A stretch of 64,000 bases of DNA from Cytophagales bacterium. GTDB lineage: Bacteria; Bacteroidota; Bacteroidia; Cytophagales; Flammeovirgaceae. Of the stretch, positions 43,096 through 51,908 are shown in pieces. The position numbers were made by a program, and so were the translations under genes. How positions within the stretch are numbered: position 1 is the stretch's first letter; the number at the start of each line of letters is the position of its first letter. The DNA is taken from positions 62,001 to 126,000 of the forward strand of contig JANWWC010000005.1 of NCBI GenBank assembly GCA_025056215.1, read 5' to 3'. The notes below the pieces were generated by a model. That model ran no database searches. It worked only from the letters and a program-made list of their open reading frames with translations, and was not told the DNA's origin.

Positions 43096-44577
43096 ATGGA
43101 TTTAAAAAGACTCACTATTTTTCATCAGCTTACGCTTTCTTATTTGTTTGTTGGAGGATTCATGATTTTTTCAGTTTCATTACTTTTTTACTACACCATG
43201 CGTCAAGCAATTATAGAGCGAATTTTTGCGCAGTTGTCGTCTATTAATCGATTGCAAAAAGTTCATGTAGAAGATTTATTGCTGCAGGAAAAAAGTATTA
43301 GCGATATCAAAAACATTTTGCTAATCCGAACAGGTATGGGAGAAACGGGTGAGTCTTATTTGGTAGACGACAAAGACACTATGCGCTCTGAATCCAGGTT
43401 TTTTCCCAGTACAATTCCTATTTTGGTACGTACAGAGGGCGTTTTAAAGGCACGTAAAGAGGGTCATTTTAGTGGATTGATTCGAGATTATAGAGGGGTA
43501 GAAGTTTACAGTGTAGCAAGCACTCTCAGCATTCCTCAAAAACATTCTTGGGTGATTCTTACTGAAATAGATAAATCAGAAGCTCACAAGCCACTTGAAA
43601 AAGCTTTAAAATTTACTGCTTTGATAGTAATTTTTTCATTTATTTTATTATGGATTTCTACTTTTGTGCTAGCCAAGCGTGTCTCGCAGCCTATTTTGCA
43701 GCTCAAGTCGTTTATTTTGCATCTTGCTCAAGGAAAAATTCCGAAAACCGTTTCTTTTCCAGAAAATAACGTTGAGCTCTCAGAAATAAATTTAGCGTTG
43801 TGCAAGTTATGTGAAGCACTTCGCACTTATATCGATTTTGCTCAAAACATTGGCAAAGGCAATTTTTCGGTCGATTTTCAGCCGTTGAGCAAAGAAGATG
43901 TGCACGGGTGGGCGCTGATTCAAATGAGAAACCAGCTTATCGATTTAAGAGAAAAAGAAAAAAAACTTCAACAACAAAAAACTATGGCGCTCTTAGAAGG
44001 GCAAGAAACAGAACGAAAGCGCATCGCACAAGAATTACACGATGGAGTAGGGCAAATGCTTACAGCAATTCGTTTGAGAATTGACCTTTTTAATGACAAC
44101 GAGCAACTCAAGAAAGAAATAAAGCTTATCGTAGATGAAACGATTAACGAAATAAGAAGAATTTCTAACAACCTGCTGCCAAGCGTGCTACTAGACTTTG
44201 GATTAGAAGCAGCACTTGCTAAGTTATGCCAATCTACTCAACAAGTAAGCGGAATTAGATTTCATTATTCCTTTATACAGGAAGAAGAATTTTTTCGAGA
44301 TGATTACGCTATAGATATTTGTTTTTATCGCGTAGCGCAAGAAGCTATCAATAACATTTTGAAACATGCCGATGCAAAGAATGTAACTCTTAAAGTAGTA
44401 AAATCTGCTCAAAATGCAAGTTTAGAAATTTATGATGATGGAAAAGGTTTTGATATGAAAGAAAAAAGTATCGGGAACGGAATTCAAAACATGGAAGCGC
44501 GTGTAAAAGCTCTGAATGGAATTTTCATGATTCATTCTCAACATCAAAAAGGAACTTATTTGAAGGTAATTATTTAG
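43096..44577 (+). CDS. membrane sensor histidine kinase (NarL-type, HisKA_3)
   Basis: This 493-residue kinase has an N-terminal membrane helix (about 12-35), a periplasmic single-Cache-like sensor (35-175, with GETGESYLVDDKD) and a second helix (175-200), then HAMP-like and coiled-coil parts. The phospho-acceptor region is ERKRIAQELHDGVGQ, followed by a HATPase with EAINNILKHADAKNV and GNGIQNMEARV. No response regulator is adjacent. The last 8 bp overlap the convergent ccoI stop. Confidence 0.92.
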   Translation: MDLKRLTIFHQLTLSYLFVGGFMIFSVSLLFYYTMRQAIIERIFAQLSSINRLQKVHVEDLLLQEKSISDIKNILLIRTGMGETGESYLVDDKDTMRSESRFFPSTIPILVRTEGVLKARKEGHFSGLIRDYRGVEVYSVASTLSIPQKHSWVILTEIDKSEAHKPLEKALKFTALIVIFSFILLWISTFVLAKRVSQPILQLKSFILHLAQGKIPKTVSFPENNVELSEINLALCKLCEALRTYIDFAQNIGKGNFSVDFQPLSKEDVHGWALIQMRNQLIDLREKEKKLQQQKTMALLEGQETERKRIAQELHDGVGQMLTAIRLRIDLFNDNEQLKKEIKLIVDETINEIRRISNNLLPSVLLDFGLEAALAKLCQSTQQVSGIRFHYSFIQEEEFFRDDYAIDICFYRVAQEAINNILKHADAKNVTLKVVKSAQNASLEIYDDGKGFDMKEKSIGNGIQNMEARVKALNGIFMIHSQHQKGTYLKVII

Positions 44578-47017
44578 ATAGTTGCTTCTGAAGAGTACTT
44601 TCTGAAAACTTTACAGCTAAGGTGGTAAAGCCAATGACAGTGAGCGAGCTCAAAGGCATCAAAATAGCAGCAATGAGAGGAGAAAGTGTTCCGCTTACAG
44701 CGAAACTTAATCCTATTGCGTTGTAAATAAGAGAAATACCAAAACTTATTTTTACTACTCGAATTGCCTTTTGACAAAAGAAGATGATATTGGGGATATT
44801 CGTAATTTGTGAAGCTTCTAAAATAACATCGCCCGCAGGTGTCAGTAATGCAGTATTTTCAGTAATAGCAACGCCTATCCATGCACTTTGGAGGGCACCA
44901 GCGTCGTTCAGACCGTCTCCCAACATCATAGGGTAGTATCCTTTGTTTAGTAATTGTCGTACAAAGGCTAATTTATCGGTAGGTTTTTGAAAGAATTTAA
45001 GTGAATTTTCGCTCTCAAAGAAGCGCAAGAGTCTTACTTTTTCCGAATCGTTATCACCAGAAAGTAAGTAAACAGGAAATTTTTGTTGCAAATTTTGAAT
45101 CGTTTCTCCAATTCCTCTGCGGTATTTGTTTTTAAATTTAAAGTAACCCACTAAAGTAGAGTTAATAGAGACGTAGACGCGCGTTTCATCTAAAAAGTTA
45201 GAAACCTTAGCTTTTTCATTTACAAACGATAAGTTACCAATTCTAATTTCTTCTCCTTCCACTTGAGCACTTACTCCTTTTCCGATAACTTCTTGGAAGT
45301 GAATAGCTTTATAATTCGACTCGCAATTTTTAATATATTCGGCTATTGCAATCGAAAGAGGATGAACGGAGTTACTTACAAGTGGGTATATTTTTGAAAA
45401 TATCGTGCCAACATTGAGATTTTCTTGAAGAGGTTCAAAGCTAATTTCAGGAGATCTTTCTGTAATTGTTCCTGTTTTGTCGAAGATAATTACATCTGTT
45501 TGGGCTATTTTTTCAACAGTTTGTGTATTTTTGACGTAACATTTGTGCTTGCCAAGCAGGCGCATAGCTGTTCCCAACGCAAACGGACTAGAAAGCGCTA
45601 ACGCACAAGGGCAGCCAATGATGAGCGTAGCACCAAGAGCATTGAGTCCTCGTGACCAGTCTGAAGAGAATCCCCAGAATAGCAAAGAACCGAAAGCAAT
45701 TCCTAACAGAGAAATTGTAAAATAGCGACTGAGCGTGGTTTGCAATGTTTCAAAGGAGTCGTCTTTTTTCTTATCGAGTTGATTCCATAGTTGTGTAAGG
45801 TAGCTTTGAGAAACAGGCTTGATTACTTCTAACCAAATAGAAGTACCTTGTTGTTTTCCACCAGCATAGATCGTTTGTCCTTCTTCTACATGAACAGGCA
45901 TCGATTCACCTGTTACAAAGCTATAATCAATAATAGCATGCTCGCTGAGTAGCTTACTATCGGCAGGGATGAGTTCGTGGTTACGTACCAAAATTCGGTC
46001 AGAAGGTTGCAGTTTTTTGATAGGTATAGGCTGTACTGAACCATCTGGCATAAGTTTTTGAACTGCTAATGGAAAAAACGACTCGTAGTCGCGGTCATAG
46101 CGCAAAGTGTCATAAGTAAATTGTTGAAACCATTTCCCGATTAACAAGAAAAATACTAATCCTGCTAGCGTATCTAAATATCCAGCATCTGTTCCTGTTC
46201 CGATTTCATATAAGCTTCGTATCAAAAGAACTATTAATCCTATTGCCAAAGGAACGTCTATATTGAGGTATTTTTCTCGAATACTTCGCCAAGCAGAAAT
46301 TAAATAATCTCGACCGCTATAGAAAAATACAGGAATGCTCAATAAAACATTAAGCGTACTAAACCAGTGTTTAAATGTCTGTTGAGATTGCGAATCAAAT
46401 CCTAAATATTCAGGGAAACTCCAAAGCATGATGTTTCCAAAGCAAAATCCTGCTACAGCGATTTTGAGAATAAGTTTTTTTTGGGCTTCTGTTCGTAAAA
46501 AATGTGTTTGTCTATTTTGAGAGTTTTCAGATTCTAAATTGATAAAAGGAGCATAGCCCAAACGCGCTAAAAGAGAAGCAACCTCTGAAAGTCGGATGGA
46601 GCTAGATTGAAAAGTAATTGAAAGTGTCTTTCTTAAAAAATTAACGCGTGAATTGATAATCCGTTTTTCAATGCGGTGTAAGTTTTCTAATAACCAAATG
46701 CACGAACTGCAATGGATTGAAGGAATTTCCCATGTAACTTTAGCAATTTTTCCATCTGTAAATTCGATAATTTGAGATTGAATCTCGGGTAGGTCTAAGT
46801 AATCGTATGTATTTTCTGAAAAAGAGGCACTTATACCTGAGCATTTGTTGAGCTCGTAGTATTTTTCTAAATGGTTCTCTTTGAGAATTTGGTACACATT
46901 TTTGCACCCTTGACAGCAAAATGTTTTTTGGTCATAGTAAAGAGCTGATTTCTCATCAGTTATTTGCCCGCAATGGTAGCATTCTATTCCCACTCGACTT
47001 TGTGCATTAGACGACAT
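44570..47017 (-). CDS. ccoI: CcoI/FixI-type copper-translocating P-type ATPase
   Basis: This heavy-metal P1B ATPase of 815 residues is of the type that supplies copper to cbb3 cytochrome oxidase. The N-terminal cysteine-rich domain (CYHCG, then FCCQGC) and the HMA-like SIHCSSCIWLL are typical of CcoI. The ion motif is GCPCALALSSPFALGTAMRLL, the phosphorylation site FDKTGTITE and the hinge LGDGLNDAGALQ. It is divergent from an FNR-like regulator, but ccoS and ccoNOP are not in the window. Confidence 0.92.
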   Translation of the reverse strand: MSSNAQSRVGIECYHCGQITDEKSALYYDQKTFCCQGCKNVYQILKENHLEKYYELNKCSGISASFSENTYDYLDLPEIQSQIIEFTDGKIAKVTWEIPSIHCSSCIWLLENLHRIEKRIINSRVNFLRKTLSITFQSSSIRLSEVASLLARLGYAPFINLESENSQNRQTHFLRTEAQKKLILKIAVAGFCFGNIMLWSFPEYLGFDSQSQQTFKHWFSTLNVLLSIPVFFYSGRDYLISAWRSIREKYLNIDVPLAIGLIVLLIRSLYEIGTGTDAGYLDTLAGLVFFLLIGKWFQQFTYDTLRYDRDYESFFPLAVQKLMPDGSVQPIPIKKLQPSDRILVRNHELIPADSKLLSEHAIIDYSFVTGESMPVHVEEGQTIYAGGKQQGTSIWLEVIKPVSQSYLTQLWNQLDKKKDDSFETLQTTLSRYFTISLLGIAFGSLLFWGFSSDWSRGLNALGATLIIGCPCALALSSPFALGTAMRLLGKHKCYVKNTQTVEKIAQTDVIIFDKTGTITERSPEISFEPLQENLNVGTIFSKIYPLVSNSVHPLSIAIAEYIKNCESNYKAIHFQEVIGKGVSAQVEGEEIRIGNLSFVNEKAKVSNFLDETRVYVSINSTLVGYFKFKNKYRRGIGETIQNLQQKFPVYLLSGDNDSEKVRLLRFFESENSLKFFQKPTDKLAFVRQLLNKGYYPMMLGDGLNDAGALQSAWIGVAITENTALLTPAGDVILEASQITNIPNIIFFCQKAIRVVKISFGISLIYNAIGLSFAVSGTLSPLIAAILMPLSSLTVIGFTTLAVKFSESTLQKQLSK

Positions 47018-47037
47018 AACTTAATAAGATTTTCTTA

Positions 47038-47045
47038 CAAAGTTA
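47038..47045 (-). promoter_or_regulatory. -7 promoter element of ccoI
   Basis: The minus-strand octamer TAACTTTG matches TAnnTTTG perfectly, 20 bp before the ccoI start at 47017. The estimated start of transcription near 47033 puts the FNR-like palindrome at about -63, a known class I activator position. Confidence 0.5.
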
Positions 47046-47090
47046 TTCGTCAGCATTAGAGATAATAATGAGATTTTGCAAAGAAAAAGA

Positions 47091-47102
47091 TGATTTTTAT
47101 CA
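47091..47102. promoter_or_regulatory. FNR/Crp-type binding site TGAT-N4-ATCA
   Basis: TGATTTTTATCA is an exact match to the inner part of the FNR consensus (TTGAT-N4-ATCAA). It lies between ccoI and the fnr-like gene, 74 bp and 55 bp from the two start codons. The outer bases (A and C) do not match the consensus T and A. Confidence 0.6.
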
Positions 47103-47122
47103 CCTTTTTCATTTTTTTTTAT

Positions 47123-47130
47123 TAACATTG
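47123..47130 (+). promoter_or_regulatory. probable -7 element of the fnr-like gene
   Basis: TAACATTG has one mismatch to TAnnTTTG and lies 26 bp before the ATG at 47157. An estimated start near 47135 puts the FNR-like palindrome centre at about -39, near the class II position of -41.5. Confidence 0.4.
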
Positions 47131-47156
47131 TACAACAAACTTCACATCTTTTTGTT

Positions 47157-47861
47157 ATGGCTTTCTCTAATGTAACAGGCGATATTTTATGCGAGCGCTG
47201 CCGGATTCGCCAACAGTCACTGCTAAGATTCTGTACTATTACAGAAATCAACAGTATTAGCGTTTCTAAATCGTGCAACACTTACAAAAGAGGGCAAGAA
47301 ATATTTCATGAGGGCAGTTTGCCATTAGGGTTATTTTGTATCAATTCAGGAAGTATCAAAATCGTAAAGTATGCTTCAGGTGGAAAAGAACAAATTATCA
47401 GAATTGCTACAGCGGGCGAACTTGTGGGATATCGTTCTTTAATCACAAGGAAAAGGTATACTACGTCGGCAATTGCTGCAGAAGATTCTAAAGTATGCAT
47501 CATTCCCAAAGACGAGTTTTATAAGATTATTCAAACGAATCAAGTGTTTTATCAAGCTATTTTAAATGCATTAGTGGAAAACTTAGAAAAGGCAGAAGCC
47601 AAAATTGCTGATGTGGCATATAAGCCCGTTCGCGGACGTATCGCAGAAGCGTTGCTTATGCTTGCCCGAAGTAATGGAGATGATAAATGGAGTGTTACTC
47701 TGACGCGCGAAGATTTAGCAGGCTTCGTAGGAACTGTAAAAGAAACAGCCATTCGGACGCTCTCTGAATTTAGAGACGAAAAACTAATTCAGATTGATAA
47801 AAGAACTATTCGAATTTTGAATCCTGAAGGACTAGAACGCATGAGTAATCTGTATGATTAA
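47157..47861 (+). CDS. Crp/Fnr-family regulator with N-terminal cysteines (FNR-like)
   Basis: This 234-residue regulator has a cyclic-nucleotide-binding-like sensor domain (about 45-150) and a C-terminal winged helix with LTREDLAGFVGTVKETAIRTL. The recognition helix keeps the Glu and Arg used by FNR/Crp to read TGA. Before the sensor domain are cysteines at 12, 15, 26 and 40 (ILCERCR first), which could bind a 4Fe-4S cluster as in FNR. It is divergent from ccoI with an FNR-type site in between, which suggests oxygen-responsive control. Confidence 0.88.
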   Translation: MAFSNVTGDILCERCRIRQQSLLRFCTITEINSISVSKSCNTYKRGQEIFHEGSLPLGLFCINSGSIKIVKYASGGKEQIIRIATAGELVGYRSLITRKRYTTSAIAAEDSKVCIIPKDEFYKIIQTNQVFYQAILNALVENLEKAEAKIADVAYKPVRGRIAEALLMLARSNGDDKWSVTLTREDLAGFVGTVKETAIRTLSEFRDEKLIQIDKRTIRILNPEGLERMSNLYD

Positions 47862-50083: not shown

Positions 50084-51908
50084 ATGAAAATTTTGTGTTG
50101 CTTTTTGTTCATTTCTACTCTTTGGGCGCAATCCCCTCTGATTACGAATGTGTATCAAAGGAAGTTCGTTAGTCTCAATGGAAAATGGAATTGTATTGTA
50201 GATCCTTACGAATGCGGATATTACGATTATCGCCGTGAGCCTTTTGATAGGCGACAAGAACCACCTAAAGAAGCTTTTTTTATGAACGCTATTCCTAAAA
50301 ATAAAATCGAGCTCATAGAATATAGTTTTGATAAATCTGAAACGCTCCTTGTGCCTGGCGATTGGAATTCACAATCTGAAAAACTTCTTTACTACGAAGG
50401 GACTATTTGGTATCGACGTTTGTTTGACGTTTGTAAGCAATCTCATAAGCGTTATTTTTTGTATTTCGGAGCAATCAATTATGAAACGATTGTATATTTG
50501 AATGGTAAACGGTTGGGAAGTCATGTCGGCGGATTTACTCCTTTTAACTACGAGATTCCTGATAGTCTGTTGCGGGAAAAAGGTAATTTCTTAGTGCTGA
50601 AAGTCGATAATACCAGAAAGGCAGAATCTGTGCCTACTCTTCAAACAGACTGGTGGAATTATGGCGGTATTACAAGAGATGTTCTTTTATTAGAAATGAA
50701 CGAAACTTTTATTCAAGATTTTTATTTGCAACTTTCTAAAGGGAGTCTTTCGCAGGCTGAAGGTTGGGTACAGCTCAACGGCTCTCGCAAGAAGCAAAAA
50801 ATAAAGATTTGTATCCCTGAACTTAACATCTTGCATTTGGCAAATTCTGATAGCAATGGATTAGCGACATATAAAATCGAGTTGAAAAGACCTGTTTTGT
50901 GGACTCCTCACAATCCAAAGCTTTATGAGGTCATCATTACTGCCGAAACCGACCAAATATCTGATCTAATCGGGTTTAGAACTATTGAAACACAAGGAAC
51001 TGAAATCTTGCTCAATAAAAAACCTATTTTTCTTAGAGGAATTTGTATTCACGAAGAGATACCTCATCGCAAAGGAAGAGCTTATAGTCGAGAAGACGCA
51101 CAATTGCTTTTAGGGTGGGCAAAAGAGCTAAATTGCAATTTTGTTCGATTAGCACATTACCCGCATAATGAGCATATGGTTCGTTTAGCAGATGAGTTAG
51201 GTTTATTAGTATGGGAAGAAATTCCTGTGTACTGGACGATTCAATGGGAAAATTCCGAAACTTTAAAAAATGCTAAAACCCAACTTAATGATGTCATCAC
51301 AAGAGACAAAAATAGAGCCTCTGTTATCATTTGGTCTGTTGCCAACGAAACTCCAGTAACGCCCCATAGGCTTATTTTTTTAAAGGAACTCATTTCTTAC
51401 GTTCGCCTTAAAGATGGTGCGCGCTTAGTAAGTGCAGCTATGGAAGTAGAATTATCCAAACGGAAAAGAAAATGTTTTTCCTGTTCATGATCCATTAGGA
51501 GAATATACAGATGTGATTAGTTTTAATGAATATATAGGTTGGTACGGAGATGCGATGCCAGACGCTTGCCAATATGTTAGTTTTGATATAAAATTTGAAA
51601 AGCCTGTGATTGTGAGCGAGTTTGGCGCTGATGCACTTTATGGATTCCACGGTGATTCTCTTACGCGTTGGTCGGAAGAGTATCAAGAAAATGTATATAT
51701 TCAGCAATTAGCTATGTTGCGTCGTCATGCTAAGGTGAGAGGAATAACTCCTTGGCTACTCGTTGATTTTCGCTCTCCTCGTCGCAATGCTCCTTTCTAT
51801 CAAGACGGCTGGAACAGAAAAGGAGTTTATTCTGAGCTAGGAGATAAAAAAAGGGCTTTTTATGTGCTCAAAAGATTTTATGAAGAAGTTGAGAAAGGTT
51901 TCAAATAA
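50084..51908 (+). pseudogene. GH2 beta-glucuronidase-like gene with frameshift
   Basis: The reading frame starts at 50084 with a signal peptide (LCCFLFISTLWAQ) and runs to a stop at 51488-51490. The same protein continues in the +1 frame, from about 51456 to 51908. Together they give about 608 residues, the usual length for a secreted GH2 beta-glucuronidase/galactosidase. The acid/base Glu is in WSVANETP of the first part; the nucleophile Glu is in VSEFGADA of the second. The shift lies near 51449-51475, around the A/G-rich CCAAACGGAAAAG. It is either a sequencing error or a recent inactivation. Confidence 0.85.

Follow-up and report, generated by a model that had tools for sequence, protein, structure and literature searches.

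Which protein would act at the palindrome that separates ccoI from a divergent CRP/FNR-family regulator gene, and which of the two genes would it serve? Both genes lie in the window, by which we mean the whole 64,000-nt stretch that was analyzed (Cytophagales bacterium, GCA_025056215.1, contig JANWWC010000005.1, positions 62,001-126,000 of the forward strand). Since ccoI starts at 47017 on the minus strand and the regulator gene at 47157 on the plus strand, 139 bp lie between them. The genes and the parts of this region are as follows.

44570-47017, minus strand: ccoI (FixI), a copper-transporting P1B-type ATPase with the N-terminal metal-binding domain PF12156, CxxC and CPC.
47045-47038, minus strand: exact -7 box of ccoI, TAACTTTG, 44 nt from the main site.
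47068-47081, minus strand: degraded second site, TTGCAAAATCTCAT, centered at -41.5 for ccoI; identified from the sequence and from the proximal-site signal in 26 class-I-type promoters.
47090-47103: main palindromic site, ATGATTTTTATCAC, with its core TGAT-N4-ATCA at 47091-47102, centered at -63.5 for ccoI; identified from the sequence and from conservation of the motif before ccoI, ccoN, and hemA.
47123-47130, plus strand: candidate -7 box for the regulator gene, TAACATTG, imperfect (five of six fixed letters), 19 nt from the site.
47157-47861, plus strand: CRP/FNR-family regulator of 234 aa, with C12, C15, C26, and C114 and the recognition helix KETAIR.

A first-pass annotation of this DNA had pointed to the core palindrome in the divergent region and to a perfect minus-strand box for ccoI with a near-match for the regulator, and all of these can be read directly in the sequence. 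The gene families that it had named were likewise confirmed. The ccoI product is a P1B ATPase with PF12156, a CxxC motif within SIHCSSC, and a CPC motif within GCPCALALSSP, which are the hallmarks of CcoI/FixI; we infer from this family its role in copper transport for cbb3 assembly, and in relatives ccoI adjoins ccoN. The regulator matched the cNMP-binding domain PF00027 (4.1e-22) and the HTH_Crp_2 domain PF13545 (5.4e-18), placing it in the CRP/FNR superfamily. From the position of its box, ccoI is predicted to be transcribed from ∼47033, and the computed site centers of -63.5 for ccoI and -38.5 for the regulator agree with previous estimates of about -63 and -39. Downstream, ccoI and a histidine kinase gene (43096-44577) converge, their 3' ends sharing 8 bp (44570-44577). 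On the other side of the regulator, a glycoside-hydrolase-like gene at 50084-51908 is apparently split by a frameshift into ORFs in different frames (50084-51490 and 51513-51908), which appears to reflect decay or a sequencing error.

The first-pass annotation had proposed a search with the E. coli string TTGAT-N4-ATCAA. The intergenic site deviates from this string at two positions, and with up to two mismatches allowed we observed no enrichment in the 64-kb window (75 matches versus 78.5 expected). As this frequency equals expectation, a match to TTGAT-N4-ATCAA alone is no evidence, and we rejected the string as a working motif; its two perfect matches in the window (27681 and 28400) are both intragenic. 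The informative motif came instead from relatives, as the three closest regulators that face a divergent ccoS (L123-L125) have ATGAYTTTTRTCAT-like intergenic sites. Targets within the genome studied here read ATGAY-N4-RTCAT or deviate from it by one flanking base, with the inner core TGAY-N4-RTCA kept, and the sites of some relatives read TTGAC-N4-GTCAA. Hence a search with the E. coli string would miss real targets in this genome, for which ATGAY-N4-RTCAT is the motif.

Within the same order, TGAY-N4-RTCA precedes 40/47 ccoN genes (Markov resamples gave a mean of 2.8 and a maximum of 7), 22/30 ccoI genes within 400 nt (28/30 within 700 nt), and 18/30 hemA genes (controls, 0-3), although these counts are not independent events since the relatives share ancestry. 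A lack of motif enrichment before microaerobic genes in related genomes, which the first-pass annotation had named as grounds for abandoning its model, is thus not what we observed. Letter-permuted palindromes occurred before a mean of 2.4 ccoN and 1.1 ccoI genes, and the maxima of 16 and 10 came from a palindrome that overlaps the true motif. Moreover, a spacer of four was the sole spacer enriched, with 40 ccoN and 22 ccoI sites versus at most 10 and 2, respectively, for other spacers. Beyond the order, the site precedes ccoN in 19/20 genomes of other orders in the class and in 2/43 outside the class (within 500 nt), a post hoc contrast that is useful as a control.

Start-site mapping in Flavobacterium psychrophilum places the -7 box at -12 to -5 (PMC9723704). 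When we measured the distance from 64 non-redundant ccoN and ccoI sites to TAnnTTTG boxes matching five or six of six letters, it was almost quantized: boxes fell at 22 nt (15 boxes), 23 nt (4), 44 nt (16), 45 nt (5), and 46 nt (5), and every other position had 0-3. With the sites of this genome omitted, 43 boxes were in phase (22-23 or 44-46 nt) versus 27 across the other 55 positions. Given a box at -12 to -5, these phases put the site centers at ∼-41.5 and ∼-63.5, which is the geometry of FNR-type activated promoters, with class II sites near -41.5 and class I sites at about -61 or further out along the same face of the helix. The gaps in this genome are 44 nt for ccoI, 44 nt for ccoS, 22 nt for hsp20, and 21 nt for hemA, all with exact boxes; no in-phase -7 box of five of six letters or better was found in the usp and DsbD_2 promoters. 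The class I placement originally suggested for ccoI, with its Bacteroidota -7 box, describes a layout that recurs in many genomes.

Could A+T-rich intergenic DNA have produced such a palindrome by chance? Matches to the loose motif across the genome are mostly intragenic, and the E. coli string at two mismatches is no commoner than expected, both of which fit a chance origin. However, such an origin is already contradicted by the conservation before ccoI, ccoN, and hemA, by the fixed phase, and by the spacer specificity, and we regard it as highly improbable. Dinucleotide shuffles of the 139 bp, for which the phases were derived from relatives, contained TGAY-N4-RTCA in 1.3% of cases and the site together with an exact in-phase TAnnTTTG box in just 0.015%. 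The palindrome is thus a real, functional-looking FNR-type operator within a conserved promoter design.

The ccoI promoter had been described with one site only; its position at -63.5 held, but a degraded second site at -41.5 had been missed. This second site is spaced exactly 22 bp from the main one and retains the promoter-side half CTCAT. Across the 26 class-I-type promoters, a second copy of the motif 22-23 bp closer to the box matches a mean of 5.27/8 letters, versus 0.8-3.4 at other offsets. The promoter-side half of this copy is TCAT (or TCAA) in all but one of the 26, and its other half is often decayed. This suggests either that two dimers sit side by side or that a half-site replaces the -33 element. 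On balance, we slightly favor a class-wide Bacteroidota FNR-type regulon for cbb3, copper ATPase, and heme genes with a promoter grammar of its own, in which the -7 box TAnnTTTG would be preceded by a full palindrome at -63.5 together with a part-degraded one at -41.5, and in which the near-invariant TCAT half may replace the -33 element.

In this genome we counted 21 exact ATGAY-N4-RTCAT sites, versus 12 for a control pattern, and only four of the 21 are intergenic. These precede the ccoS-ccoNO operon, which runs on through ccoQ, ccoP, ccoG, and ccoH, as well as the DsbD_2 gene, usp, and hsp20. Allowing one flanking mismatch added the window site, a site before hemA, and two intergenic matches with no obvious link. 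Because the loose matches are mostly intragenic, the motif alone is insufficient to define the regulon, and the list given here is a partial one that covers the stretches around pattern matches and target genes. The intergenic matches L204 and L244 were rejected as targets for want of an in-phase box or a coherent function, as was the photolyase gene divergent from hemA, which is without an in-phase box. The cco set of this genome is split over three loci, each with its own site (L106 6627-6640, L189 1949-1962, and window 47090-47103); ccoI, ccoS-N-O-P-G-H, and the DsbD_2 gene are clustered together in many relatives. The cbb3 and heme genes of F. psychrophilum are induced under oxygen limitation (PMC9723704). 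Near the ccoS operon, L106 3158-5531 holds many short minus-strand ORFs that resemble remnants of a beta-glucosidase-like gene and is probably a decayed gene.

The adjacent regulator is the sole Crp-type HTH (PF13545) protein in this 99.5% complete genome. Because there is no other such protein, the sites can be provisionally assigned to it by elimination. Upon alignment with E. coli FNR, C12, C15, and C114 correspond to FNR C20, C23, and C122, as they do in most relatives, and C26 stands in place of C29 with a shift of five residues (C-X2-C-X10-C). The recognition helix keeps E209 and R213, consistent with the earlier claim of a retained Glu and Arg, and carries K for V208 and I for S212, substitutions that may go with the changed outer base in the half-site. 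In some genomes of the same family a response-regulator-CRP fusion of 351-356 aa with a similar recognition helix (IESVIR) is found instead (L043-L047), and these genomes still carry sites before ccoN. A scan of genome contigs with the single regulator protein returned mostly distant proteobacterial and Verrucomicrobia relatives, plus two Ignavibacteria proteins. The Ignavibacteria regulators L081 and L082 are 47% identical to the regulator of the window and have the same cysteine set.

Four cysteines, three of them aligned with FNR ligands, make oxygen sensing by this regulator a plausible and well-motivated reading. Alternatively, the regulator could control the same genes in response to nitric oxide, thiol redox state, or a small metabolite. 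The C-X2-C-X10-C arrangement is unlike the C-X2-C-X5-C of E. coli FNR, and the HMMs do not discriminate, with FNR and CRP at 71.3 and 71.0 bits. Relatives such as L035 and L042 lack some or all of these cysteines. Partial losses occur in some relatives that retain the sites, hence cluster-based oxygen sensing need not be general. In addition, homologues in Flavobacteriales, Saprospiraceae, and Ignavibacteria have been assigned to MalR-like carbon sensing (PMC8510549). We nevertheless consider a non-oxygen signal unlikely, as the match of C12/C15/C114 to the FNR ligands is shared by most relatives and the targets, cbb3, copper, and heme, are the classic low-oxygen set.

Taken together, the intergenic site is probably the operator of the adjacent FNR-like regulator, which would activate ccoI and the cbb3/heme set, most likely at low oxygen. 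An FNR-like dimer would bind the full palindrome at -63.5 and activate ccoI, with a second, weaker dimer probably on the degraded site at -41.5 beside the Bacteroidota-type promoter and its -7 box. The same protein and layout would activate the ccoS-NO-Q-P-G-H operon, the DsbD_2 gene, and hemA, and probably usp and hsp20. Since one protein would activate all of these by the same layout, copper delivery, heme supply, and the high-affinity cbb3 oxidase are predicted to rise together. The most likely trigger would be a fall in oxygen that leaves a putative [4Fe-4S] cluster on C12/C15/C26/C114 intact.

This arrangement shares with E. coli FNR the CRP/FNR fold, the helix Glu and Arg, three aligned cluster cysteines, a spacer of four, and activation-type positions near -41.5 and -61 to -64 as at class I and II promoters. 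It differs in the half-site (TTGAT in E. coli, ATGAY in this genome), in the helix (VETISR versus KETAIR), in a third cysteine five residues further on, and in promoters that have TAnnTTTG rather than a -10 hexamer, a distal site at -63.5, and frequently a full site in tandem with a degraded one. FixK, FnrL, and ANR of Proteobacteria (fixNOQP, fixGHIS) likewise exert FNR-type co-control of cbb3 subunits, CcoI/FixI, and heme synthesis, but in another phylum, with other half-sites and promoter types; here the cco set is in three pieces, each with a site. HcpR of delta-proteobacteria and cyanobacteria (TTGACnnnnGTCAA; PMC1274295) also recognizes an FNR-like palindrome with a spacer of four and an inner C or T, yet its targets are hcp and frdX and its signal is nitric oxide, and the Bacteroides HcpR2 site is GTAACnnnnGTTAC. 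We found no FNR-type regulon described for Bacteroidota cbb3 oxidases in the open literature, the scope of our search, so that novelty is provisional with respect to subscription papers. Oxygen control in Bacteroidota is poorly mapped, and starts and regulons can be predicted class-wide from sequence, given how specific the site, its spacing, and its targets are. The layout also shows how a CRP/FNR activator is accommodated at a promoter whose -7 box is the unusual TAnnTTTG, and the same evidence questions the published carbon-sensing assignment of related regulators (PMC8510549).

Whether the site also acts on the regulator gene is a separate matter. Of the autoregulated oxygen switch proposed in the first-pass annotation, the ccoI half stands, and the motif and the autoregulation call for correction. 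The regulator's imperfect box, 19 nt from the site, falls outside the phases of 22-23 and 44-46 nt. In most relatives the regulator gene is not preceded by a site, and those that do have one there mainly carry a divergent cco gene. Autoregulation is thus unproven, given an out-of-phase regulator promoter and a site kept mainly with a divergent cco gene. Dual action, in which the site activates ccoI and also represses the regulator gene (or activates it, as first proposed), is a tentative reading to which we give somewhat less than even weight. The site is common to both genes, and in L123-L125 it lies between the regulator and ccoS, 8-9 nt upstream of the regulator's exact -7 box, so placed that a bound protein would lie over the upstream promoter element; this position suggests repression of the regulator. 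In the relative L135, the site is instead 22 nt from an exact box facing its regulator. We also observed a conserved inverted pair, GATAATTCTGATAA / TTATCAGAATTATC, in L035-L041, relatives of the same family, where it flanks ∼120-150 bp upstream of the regulator.
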